Under the pieces are notes generated by a model. The model saw nothing but the letters and a program-made list of their open reading frames with translations. It was not told the origin of the DNA and did no database searches. DNA of 64,000 nt, taken from positions 216,599-280,598 of the forward strand of contig NZ_SSHH01000004.1 in NCBI RefSeq assembly GCF_004965515.1. The letters are read 5' to 3'. The position numbers and the translations under genes were made by a program. Shown here in pieces: positions 21,940 through 37,312 of this stretch. The stretch's first letter is position 1. Every line of letters starts with the position of its first letter. The stretch comes from Alteraurantiacibacter aquimixticola (GTDB taxonomy: Bacteria; Pseudomonadota; Alphaproteobacteria; Sphingomonadales; Sphingomonadaceae).

Positions 21940-21966
21940 AACCCCGCTTCGGCGGGGTTTTTCTTT
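21940..21966 (+). terminator. Intrinsic terminator
   Basis: AACCCCGC, a TTCG tetraloop and GCGGGGTT form a perfect eight-base stem followed by a T-rich run. It ends transcription of the exported-protein gene at 21160-21912. Confidence 0.93.
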
Positions 21967-34273: not shown

Positions 34274-36274
34274 TCAGCCGTTCCTGTCGGGCGCGGTGGC
34301 CGCGCCGGTAACCAACGCAATCGCCTCCTCGACAGGCAGGAATTGCTGCTGCTTCTCACCCAGTGTGCGCAGCGCGACCGTGCCTTCCTCCGCCTCGCGC
34401 TTGCCCAGCACGAGGATGTAGGGAACCTTGGCAACCGAGTGCTCGCGCACCTTGTAATTGATCGACTCGTTGCGGAAATCGGTCTCGACGCGAATGCCCG
34501 CCGCTTCCAGCTTCGCGGCCACTTCCTTGGCATAAGGATCGGCGTCGGACACGATCGTCGCCACCACCGCCTGCACCGGCGCGAGCCATGCGGGCAGGCG
34601 ACCGGCGAAGTGTTCGATCAGGATACCGATGAAGCGTTCGTAGGAACCGAAGATCGCGCGGTGCAGCATGACCGGGCGGTGCTTCTCGCCATCCTCGCCG
34701 ATATAGGTCGCATCGAGGCGTTCGGGCAGCACGCGGTCGGACTGGATCGTGCCGACCTGCCAGGTGCGGCCGATGGCATCGGTGAGGTGCCATTCGAGCT
34801 TGGGAGCATAGAAGGCGCCCTCGCCGGGAAGTTCTTCCCAGCCAAATTCTTCCGTCGCCATGCCGGCATCGACCACCGCCTGGCGCAATTCGGCCTCCGC
34901 CTTGTCCCAGTCCTCGTCGCTGCCGAAACGCTGTTCGGGGCGCAGGGCCAGCTTGATCTCGTAGGTGAAGCCGAAATCCTTGTAGATCCGGTCGGCCAGC
35001 TCGCAGAAAGCGCGGACCTCGGACACGATCTGGTCCTCGCGGCAGAAGATATGCGCATCGTCCTGCGTGAACTGGCGCACGCGCATCAGGCCATGCAAGG
35101 CACCATGCGGTTCGTTGCGGTGGCAGCAGCCATTCTCATAGAGGCGCAGCGGCAGGTCGCGATAGGAAGTGATGCCCTGCTTGAAGACCAGCACGTGCGC
35201 CGGGCAGTTCATCGGCTTCAGCGCCATCCAGTCGGCATCGCCGCTGATGATTTCGCCTTCATCCTCCGTATTCGGCACCTCGTCGGGGATGACGAACATG
35301 TTCTCGCGATACTTGCCCCAGTGGCCGGACTGCTCCCACTGGCGCGCATCCATCACCTGCGGCGTCTTGATTTCCTGATAGCCCGCCGCATCGATCGCGC
35401 GGCGCATATAGGCTTCCAGCTCGCGCCAGATCTTGTAGCCGTTCGGGTGCCAGAAGACCGAGCCATGCGCTTCTTCCTGCAAGTGGAACAGGTCCATCTC
35501 GCGGCCCAGCTTGCGATGGTCGCGCTTGGCGGCCTCTTCCAGCCGCGTGAGGTGTCCCTGGAGCTGCTTCTTGTTGAGCCAGCCCGTGCCGTAGATACGC
35601 GTCAGCTGCGCGTTCTTCTGGTCACCGCGCCAATAGGCCCCGGCGACGCGCATCAGCTTGAAGGCCTGCGGATCGAGCTTGCCGGTGGAGGGCAGATGCG
35701 GGCCGCGGCACATGTCCATCCAGTCCTCGCCAGACCAATAGACCGTGAGTTCTTCGCCATCGGGAAGCTCTGCGGCCCATTCGGCCTTGAAATGCTCGCC
35801 CTGCTTCTTCCACGTGTCGATCAGCGCTTCGCGCGACCATGCCTCGCGCGTCAGCGGCTTGTCCGCCTTGATGATCTCGCGCATCTTTTCCTCGATGGCG
35901 GGCAGGTCGTCCATGCCGAAGGGTTCGCGGGAGGCGGGAGCCATCACGTCGTAATAGAAGCCATCATCGGTCGCCGGGCCGAAAGTGATCTGCGTGCCGG
36001 GCCACAGCGCCTGCACCGCTTCCGCCAGCACATGGGCATAATCGTGGCGGGCGAGTTCGAGCGCCTCTTCCTCATCGCGAGACGTGACCAGCGCCAGCTC
36101 CGCATCGCCGTCAAACGGCCGGTTGAGATCGCGCAGCTCGCCATCCACCTTCGCCGCAATCGCGGCCTTGGCAAGGCCGGGGCCGATTGCCGCCGCGACA
36201 TCCGCCGGGGTCGATCCCGTCGGCATCTCGCGCACCGAACCATCGGGAAGGCTGATCTTCAACAACTCGCTCAT
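34274..36274 (-). CDS. thrS: Threonyl-tRNA synthetase
   Basis: Encodes 666 residues with TGS (1-65), editing ([10 protein letters not shown] near 77; [12 protein letters not shown] near 190), class II catalytic ([47 protein letters not shown]) and anticodon-binding domains in order. The editing HxxxH and Cys and the catalytic zinc ligands are present. Upstream, on the same strand, is a leader ORF with seven threonine codons and several hairpins, so the gene is very likely controlled by the supply of charged tRNA-Thr. Confidence 0.98.
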
Positions 36275-36299
36275 CGAAACTCGCTCTCAATTCTCTTGG

Positions 36300-36443
36300 G
36301 CGCGCCATGGCACAGAGCGGCGCGCACCGGAAGGGGCGGCGTCGGGTTCAAGACAGCTTCGGGAGGGTGACGCCGCACCGCCCGAAGCCGGGCGGCGGCA
36401 GTCGCGTATCAGGCCGCGACCGACCGCCCCCGGCGAACCGGGG
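36300..36443 (-). promoter_or_regulatory. Candidate threonine attenuator / leader RNA of thrS
   Basis: Reading towards thrS: CCCCGG-TTCG-CCGGGG (36428-36443) begins in the threonine codons. CCGCCCG-GCTT-CGGGCGG (36378-36395) can extend by GCCGC/GCGGC. GCGGCGTC (36369-36376) can instead pair with GACGCCGC (36336-36343), which competes with that extension. GCGCGCC/GGCGCGC (36300-36325) ends 26 bases before the thrS ATG. No T-run follows the last stem, so control may act by Rho or by limiting ribosome access rather than by an intrinsic terminator. Confidence 0.6.
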
Positions 36444-36480
36444 TGGTAGTAGTCGTGGTGGTGATGCGTGCTTGCGGCAT
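36409..36480 (-). CDS. thrS leader peptide with seven consecutive threonines
   Basis: A 23-codon ORF reads MPQARI, then seven Thr codons (ACC ACC ACG ACT ACT ACC ACC, residues 7-13), then PVRRGRSVAA and a stop, 134 bases upstream of thrS. Such a run is the hallmark of ribosome-stalling attenuators (compare E. coli thrL). A predicted promoter places the transcript start at or within a base or two of its AUG, so it may be leaderless, as shown for trpL of Sinorhizobium meliloti. Stalling at low Thr-tRNA would hold the ribosome over the first hairpin and shift downstream pairing. Confidence 0.75.
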   Translation of the reverse strand: MPQARITTTTTTTPVRRGRSVAA

Positions 36481-36487
36481 GTCTGCC

Positions 36488-36516
36488 CATATAGGGCGCG
36501 ATTGCTGCGAAGTCAC
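36488..36516 (-). promoter_or_regulatory. Predicted promoter of the thrS leader
   Basis: GTGACT (36511-36516) and TATATG (36488-36493) on the minus strand are separated by 17 bases. Each matches four of six sigma-70 consensus bases. The start would be near 36480, at the leader ATG. Confidence 0.4.
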
Positions 36517-36574
36517 TAACCGGCGCATAGGCCCCCTTGGCGCGCCGCATTTGAGGGTCCATGTTGCCGCCCGC

Positions 36575-37312
36575 ATGACCGGGACAGACACTCAATTCGC
36601 CGAGATCGCGGGCCGCCGCATCGCCTATCGCCACACGCCGGGCAGCGGGCCGGCCATCGTCTTCCTGCCCGGCTATATGTCCGACATGGCGGGCGGCAAG
36701 GCGACTGCCGTGTTCGACTGGTGTGTGGCCGCCGGGCGCGAATGCCTGCTGCTCGACTACTCGGGCTGCGGGGAGAGCCCGGGCGACTTCGCCGACGGCA
36801 CTTTGTCGCGCTGGTGCGAGGAAGTCGTGGGCCTTGCCGACGAAGTGCTGGCGAATGAGCGTATCGTGATTGTCGGCTCCTCCATGGGCGGCTGGCTGAT
36901 GCTGCTGGCGGCGCGCGAACTGGGCGATCGGATCGCGGGCCTCGTCGGCATCGCCTCCGCCCCCGATTTCACCAGCTGGGGCTATGACAAGGACCAGAAG
37001 GCGGCGCTGAAGCGCGGCGAGACCGTCTATGAGGAGAGCGATTACGGCTATGATCCAATGCCCACCCATCCCGCTTTCTGGGCGGACGGGCAGGCGCAGC
37101 GGCAGCTGAAGAGCGAGATCCCGCTCGATTGCCCGGTGCGGCTGCTGCACGGGCAGGAGGATGCCGACGTGCCGCCGCAGACCTCGCTCGACCTCAGTGA
37201 CGCATTGCGTTCAGAGGATGTGCAGGTGGTGCTGGTCAAGGGCGGGGACCACCGCCTCTCGCGCGACAGCGATATCGCGCTGCTGCTGCGCACGATGGCC
37301 TCGATCCACTGA
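36575..37312 (+). CDS. Alpha/beta hydrolase
   Basis: Encodes 245 residues from the ATG at 36575. It has the standard fold with oxyanion HG-like region IVFLPGYMSD, the nucleophile elbow GSSMGG (near residue 107), acid Asp in GQEDADVP and His in GGDHRLS near the C-terminus. It resembles the ABHD10/palmitoyl-thioesterase-like branch in outline, but that is a weak match by eye. Substrate unknown. It is divergent from thrS and 15 bases upstream of the TPR protein gene. Confidence 0.85.
   Translation: MTGTDTQFAEIAGRRIAYRHTPGSGPAIVFLPGYMSDMAGGKATAVFDWCVAAGRECLLLDYSGCGESPGDFADGTLSRWCEEVVGLADEVLANERIVIVGSSMGGWLMLLAARELGDRIAGLVGIASAPDFTSWGYDKDQKAALKRGETVYEESDYGYDPMPTHPAFWADGQAQRQLKSEIPLDCPVRLLHGQEDADVPPQTSLDLSDALRSEDVQVVLVKGGDHRLSRDSDIALLLRTMASIH

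Follow-up and report, generated by a model that had tools for sequence, protein, structure and literature searches.

Upstream of thrS in sphingomonads: a conserved threonine-codon leader with mutually exclusive covarying helices, a candidate attenuator lacking a conserved U-tract

T-boxes and autocontrol by threonyl-tRNA synthetase (ThrRS) are known ways of regulating thrS; in E. coli, ThrRS binds a tRNA-like operator in its own mRNA. The autocontrol of E. coli thrS by ThrRS is named in passing in PMC2965389. In Streptomyces lividans TK24, thrS is preceded by thrL, whose leader peptide of 18 residues contains two Thr (MKRVRPFLETTPGFVPAR) and whose transcript is leaderless (PMC8079986). In Sinorhizobium meliloti the leader RNA of trpL-trpE(G) starts at the AUG and adopts mutually exclusive structures, with a terminator depicted (PMC7298713). 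The LEU element of actinobacterial leuA has a leader codon run that pairs with the Shine-Dalgarno box, and a pseudoknot (PMC1262725). Our searches of the open-licence literature returned no paper on a leader controlling thrS in sphingomonads or other Alphaproteobacteria. Such control, which the initial annotation regarded as not established in this group, has a precedent in Streptomyces lividans (PMC8079986). The Thr leader described here would be a variant of known leader-peptide control for which we found no earlier alphaproteobacterial account.

The window, i.e. the whole stretch of 64,000 nucleotides of Alteraurantiacibacter aquimixticola DNA that was analysed, carries thrS on the minus strand (34274..36274); its product of 666 aa has the Pfam domains TGS, tRNA_SAD, tRNA-synt_2b and HGTP_anticodon. 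Upstream on the same strand we recovered the short ORF of the initial annotation: 23 codons and a stop (MPQARITTTTTTTPVRRGRSVAA; 36409..36480, ATG at 36480, TGA at 36409), with seven consecutive Thr codons (ACC ACC ACG ACT ACT ACC ACC; 36442..36462) and 134 nt between its stop and the thrS ATG at 36274. As in E. coli thrS the feedback would bear on the same gene, there by binding of the enzyme to an operator, here by a leader peptide. Rfam gives one tRNA and no other match for the whole window at the gathering score; with E up to 1 the leader region has a single match far under the cut-off (17.5 vs 71 bits). The leader region matches the covariance model of neither a T-box nor any other Rfam family. 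A run of six ACN codons occurs twice in the genome, the second time within a frame open across the 400 codons inspected. Because the backward control pattern occurs three times, the rarity of the run as a DNA pattern is no proof alone.

On the plus strand, a GTG-started ORF (36443-37312) overlies the Thr run and reads it as a Val run. It belongs to an alpha/beta hydrolase gene with an alternative start at ATG 36578, and the domain is located in the part beginning at this ATG. This divergent gene can thus be mis-started at GTG 36443, which hides the leader under the Val run.

Conservation was assessed on the window and the 80 best ThrS loci from a scan of GTDB species genomes, i.e. the nearest loci out of a total of at least 80. 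With a first rule (ATG ORF of 14–34 codons, four or more Thr among nine residues) a Thr-rich leader precedes thrS in 49 of the 81 loci, the window and 48 of its 80 relatives. Conservation of the run in close relatives, on which the initial annotation had staked its reading, is therefore observed, with 32 close loci lacking the leader; among these is L008, scored as absent with merely 353 nt available upstream. A second rule, open to any residue (five of nine alike, ATG/GTG/TTG start, 8–40 codons), again yields Thr at 49/81 on the sense strand, followed by Ala (8), Pro (6) and Arg (5). Short ORFs rich in codons for the amino acid of the downstream gene are thus present at 49/81 loci, the other residues reaching at most 8/81 in sense. 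On the antisense strand Thr is found at 0/81 and Val at 34/81, the mirror of the Thr runs. The longest Thr run per leader varies from 3 to 8, the third positions of the ACN codons are mixed (ACC 191, ACT 85, ACG 73, ACA 18 across leader ORFs), and an RGRxVA-like tail recurs after the run.

On the ThrS tree, presence and absence of the leader require at least 18 changes, 7 of them forced by well-supported branches; as few are obtained in 1 of 500 shuffles. The number of changes cannot separate gain from loss. We read the patchy distribution as repeated loss because the leaders that are present can be aligned over their whole length.

A promoter, P1, is predicted just upstream of the leader (36488..36516, minus): GTGACT (36516-36511), 17 nt, TATATG (36493-36488), then 7 nt to the leader ATG. 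We searched for TGAC/TTGA/TTGC 33–38 nt and CTA/TTA 13–16 nt before an in-frame leader ATG. Both boxes stand at the right distance in 45 of the 49 leader loci, against a mean of 1.1 and a maximum of 6 for 76 shifted anchors, any in-frame ATG before the run being taken both in the count and in the control. In alignment A1, the distance to the promoter helped to choose the start codon at loci with several in-frame ATGs. A strict sigma-70 promoter scan of the leader region in the window returned none, P1 being unmatched by it. This spacing supports the initial guess of a leaderless mRNA: from the sequence, the transcript is predicted to begin with the first base of the leader AUG.

The leader RNA was analysed on alignments of these loci: A1 without L076, A2 (46 sequences) without L022 and L026, and A3, hence model R2, without L010, L016, L018, L052, L067, L070 and L078. 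An unbiased scan covered 741 segment pairs, each segment spanning 12 columns; it set the duplex energy of partners from the same sequence against that of partners swapped between sequences. The five strongest pairs are c:X (z -8.6), C':D (-6.6), A:B (-6.1), E:F (-5.9) and B:C (-5.8), relative to a mean of -0.17 (sd 1.47) for all 741, with 24 pairs below -3 and 2 above +3, the kinship of the sequences being left in. The control pairings D with E, X with D, c with D and C' with X give no signal (z 0.0 to -0.8). Many of the next-ranked pairs, not all, are neighbours of the five top helices. A swap signal that these five do not explain links RNA positions 11-22 with 76-87 (z -4.9) and with 71-82 (z -4.3), i.e. 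the start of the leader ORF (about 36470-36459) with the stretch past its stop (about 36410-36394). A local hairpin, P0 (CCCCGG/CCGGGG, 36428..36443), overlaps segment A and the last part of the Thr run; its z is -4.6 with chosen segments and -2.8 in the unbiased scan. Like the LEU element, this leader has a codon run and a possible pseudoknot or alternative hairpin; unlike in that element, as described for Leu and a biosynthetic gene (PMC1262725), a pair between the Thr run and the start region is absent among the 45 strongest of the 741.

All segments lie on the minus strand. Segment A (36415..36433) is in the leader ORF, past the Thr codons, and can explain the RGRxVA-like tail. Its main helix with segment B (36388..36406) is paired in 91.0% of cells in A2, with A-U for G-C in 7/46 sequences at one pair. 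From the scan and the pair counts, B has either A or C as partner. Hairpin B:C (36379..36394; CGCCCG 36394-36389 with CGGGCG 36384-36379) is paired in 95.3% of cells, with A-U for G-C in 11/46 at one pair; cells with two-sided changes number 12 vs 4.8 in shuffles, and the pairs showing such changes, 2 vs 2.2, are not above shuffles. Segment c (GGCTTCGGG; 36381..36389) has segment X (CCCGAAGC; 36356..36363) as partner, by scan and pair count: anchored without regard to pairing, c:X keeps 8.04 of 9 pairs (shuffled mean 7.34, maximum 7.62). Inside the c:X loop, segment C' (GCGGCGTC; 36369..36376) is the partner of segment D (GACGCCGC; 36336..36343), also by scan and pair count, with 91.5% of cells paired and two-sided changes at 6 of 7 pairs in the 46 sequences of A2. 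Taken together, A:B, C':D and E:F show 46 two-sided-change cells vs 18.8 in shuffles, and their pair counts exceed those of shuffled and slid versions. RNAalifold on 48 sequences recovers B:C and C':D.

The stems reported initially, 36378-36395 (our hairpin B:C) and 36369-36376/36336-36343 (C':D), thus exist and show compensatory changes in relatives. The proposed competition is backed by covariation as well, and the switch has more parts than first noted, A:B and c:X being new. Since B is common to A:B and B:C, and c to B:C and c:X, these helices exclude each other by shared bases. Helices c:X and C':D interleave, with gaps of 4–7 nt (c to C'), 2–7 nt (C' to X) and 8–15 nt (X to D), lengths that, by general knowledge, make an H-type pseudoknot possible. 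The window RNA alone folds just moderately better than its shuffles (z -2.39, 2/200 equally good); the case therefore rests on comparison and not on energy. In L076 the leader ORF is retained while segments B to D are gone, leaving 50 nt to thrS; either a natural deletion or a fault of the assembly may explain this.

The resemblance to S. lividans thrL-thrS lies in a leader before thrS, a leaderless mRNA (predicted here) and a hairpin without U-rich sequence (PMC8079986). The difference lies in the 3–8 Thr in a row and the five covarying helices found here, relative to two Thr in the actinobacterial leader as published. With S. meliloti trpL (PMC7298713) our locus shares an alphaproteobacterial leader ORF, an RNA starting at the AUG (predicted here) and exclusive structures; it differs from that Trp leader of a biosynthetic gene, with its depicted terminator, by the lack of a conserved U-tract.

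Partition folding was run on 48 sequences with the ribosome footprint masked. With the ribosome at the stop codon the expected pairs are 0 for A:B, 7.3 for B:C and 5.6 for C':D; they become 10.2, 2.7 and 4.3 with the ribosome at the first Thr codon, and 11.2, 2.8 and 3.8 at the fourth. A:B and B:C thus switch clearly with ribosome position, and C':D shifts little in this nested folding, being predicted for roughly one sequence in two even with the ribosome on the Thr codons. Helix c:X reaches at least 4 expected pairs in 8–21% of the 48 sequences, stays on average below C':D in every state, and is not predicted in any state in the masked folds of the window itself, whose RNA without ribosome has the same fold as in the stalled state. 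Because nested folding gives c:X few pairs, its role rests on covariation. By covariation and masked folds, i.e. by computation, mutually exclusive RNA structures are tied to the position of the ribosome.

The leader, its conservation, the promoter spacing and the mutually exclusive covarying helices can be read in the sequences themselves; stalling, the direction of the response, a transcriptional output and Rho are what we infer from them. We consider it probable that the region is a ribosome-mediated attenuator, in which the charging of threonyl-tRNA sets the expression of thrS. RNA polymerase would take the A of the leader AUG as its start, giving a leaderless mRNA from which the leader would be translated. 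Under a shortage of Thr-tRNA, the ribosome would halt in the Thr run, upstream of A. In the trp leader a stalled ribosome covers segment 1. The parity would differ in the thrS leader, where the stalled ribosome sits before A and leaves it free, because the Thr codons precede A. Segment A would then pair with B, making B unavailable to C, and c would be free for X. By enclosing C' in its loop, c:X would either block C':D or make a pseudoknot with it, and polymerase would continue into thrS. When Thr-tRNA is plentiful, a ribosome at the stop codon would cover A; B:C would form and exclude c:X, C':D would fold as a plain hairpin, and transcription would end before thrS without a U-tract, through Rho or a U-poor hairpin. 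The full scheme, in which the stall switches B:C to an H-type pseudoknot of c:X with C':D, rather than a U-tract terminator, and thereby gates the entry of polymerase into the synthetase gene, probably under Rho, is put forward as a tentative and still doubtful proposal. A charging-sensitive leader control of thrS, common in one large family, would join T-boxes and ThrRS autocontrol. With no conserved U-tract and two interleaved covarying helices, it would also be a clean natural case for the action of leaders without ordinary terminators. The same question has been raised for the thrL, metL and leuA leaders of Actinobacteria (PMC8079986).

A simple scan of the leader region in the window finds no U-tract terminator, which agrees with the absence of poly-T noted initially, and the G+C-rich hairpin plus U-tract that precedes the gene in trp-type attenuators is not found. 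No run of four T and no stretch with five T in eight is seen between the leader stop and thrS in 40 of 49 loci; the remaining nine have such a T-rich stretch, beginning 43–64 nt past the leader stop, in or near the C'-D linker. A U-poor intrinsic terminator, C':D or an extended B:C followed by a pyrimidine-rich stretch and acting free of Rho, would account for the alignments, where C/U-rich sequence follows G+C-rich hairpins, and the thrL and trpL2 leaders of S. lividans are described without a U-rich stretch (PMC8079986). We nevertheless hold this form of a Thr-sensing leader to be unlikely: the C':D loop is long (25 nt in the window, 36368-36344), and the window also contains ordinary-looking U-tract terminators (e.g. 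24476-24440 minus and 21940-21959 plus), a hairpin plus U-tract pattern that is not commoner window-wide than in shuffles. Rho sites tend to be C-rich and G-poor. The C'-D linker, with 38% C and 16% G on average in 48 sequences, suits Rho, which we take to be somewhat more likely than the U-poor hairpin.

A Thr-sensing leader could also change how accessible the thrS start or a cleavage site is, and so act on translation or RNA decay. The lack of a U-tract terminator in the window region would fit such an output, as would the actinobacterial leuA LEU elements, which join a leader peptide and a pseudoknot with a Shine-Dalgarno box (PMC1262725). The scan offers a weak signal for X with the thrS start region (z -3.4), a pairing that we did not retain since it ranks 18th of 741 and gains little energy (-4.6 vs -3.9). 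But in the window 61 nt separate the end of D from thrS, and across loci the leader stop lies 50 to 174 nt from the gene. Moreover, in the four model-matching genomes of group g7, segments A-D are kept and an intact ORF of 168–188 aa (L127 1887-2393; L276, L277, L278) separates them from thrS, with E:F absent between D and that ORF. This entire intervening ORF, which has no Pfam match for its first 90 residues and no NCBIfam match for the whole, agrees better with an effect on transcription than with one at the start site of thrS. An output on translation or decay thus appears improbable, and an effect on transcription most likely. The 54–70 nt before thrS in g7 may hold a separate promoter for the gene. 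A last reading takes the Thr run and the helices for relics or constraints of something else, e.g. an antisense gene or a DNA repeat. It can draw on the plus-strand GTG ORF reading a Val run, on the antisense Val-rich short ORFs of 34 loci and on the 18 changes on the ThrS tree, but the start of the plus-strand gene at ATG 36578, where the hydrolase domain lies, is clear of P1 and upstream of it, and leader frame, promoter spacing and helices are retained jointly in the loci that have them. We give this reading very little credence.

Between D and thrS lies the element E:F (36299..36333, minus), a CTT-N16-TNTGCCA promoter-like motif with an overlying inverted repeat, found in 38 of the 49 leader loci and a possible second thrS promoter, P2. 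The last stem of the initial annotation corresponds to it: it exists in the window (36325-36319 with 36306-36300), but is weakly kept, with 65.1% of cells paired in 46 aligned sequences, and represents, at least in part, a promoter-like motif of the DNA. From CTT to TNTGCCA the length is constant in 44 of the 46 rows of A2 (L010 is one base shorter, L078 one longer). In the family, a directional CTTTC/CTTCC-N16-TNTGCCA motif is common to thrS and lgt (prolipoprotein diacylglyceryl transferase), with sites at 36299-36333 in the window, at G000:C4:128674-128702 (L173) and in L112, L114 and L244-L273. The looser CTT-TNTGCCA motif is present in 38/49 leader loci, in 7/32 loci without the leader ORF and in 22/30 regions upstream of lgt, the latter being the best 30 of 58 genomes with a match; on the reverse strand it is found 0 times in all three sets (shuffles, mean 0.3–0.4). 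The flanking arms pair better than random at thrS (-15.7 vs -10.6 and -9.4) and hardly so at lgt (-9.0 vs -8.4). Because the directional motif is common to both genes and the arms hardly pair at lgt, the E:F core is probably a promoter, over which an inverted repeat stands solely at thrS. If so, thrS would have a leader-independent expression as well. The view of E:F as an RNA hairpin alone is weakened by the 65.1% of paired cells and by the lgt motif without inverted repeat, although the scan ranks E:F among its top five pairs. That E:F might be a frequent promoter was set aside, a 41-position model giving 40.2 bits for thrS and at most 18.4 for all else in its own genome. The exact pattern occurs at thrS, upstream of lgt and at one place apparently in a coding frame, about the chance number. 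A ThrRS anticodon mimic in E:F was also set aside, on a hint: among the 46 aligned sequences, the loop UGU is UCU in L021, L037, L048, L052 and L079, and UAU in L002.

Some loci lacking the leader, L032, L035 and others, have by eye a promoter-like pair very near the thrS ATG, and thrS itself may be a leaderless mRNA there.

Beyond the nearest loci, a covariance model built from A2 matches 100 of 249 family genomes at E up to 0.01 and 84 at E < 5e-9. The 30 best matches all stand before thrS with a Thr-rich leader ORF; among the weaker matches inspected, some are the E:F element alone (e.g. before lgt) and some lie within other genes. In 385 genomes of the class the model gives 12 matches, 3 of the 5 listed family members being strong; the other 9 have E values of 6.5e-4 to 0.0099, with about 4 expected by chance. 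The class was also scanned for leaders in 69 regions upstream of thrS (68 of at least 200 nt, one from the same family), from 124 genomes with ThrS. At five of nine residues alike, Thr is found in 3/69, not above Arg (6), Leu (4), Ala (3) and Ser (3). Thr-rich short ORFs are seen upstream of thrS in L187, L194 and L201, from other alphaproteobacterial families. As Thr does not exceed the other residues class-wide and L187 has a visible terminator, L187 alone is put forward. Like the leader described here, its Thr leader (MFKRPTIETTATTTLLEGP) precedes thrS, by about 121 nt, but unlike in the window a stem CCCTCC/GGAGGG and then TTTTTT are present; the genome of L187, G312, does not appear in the list of model matches. 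From this U6 terminator, Thr attenuation of thrS may have had more than one origin in the class.
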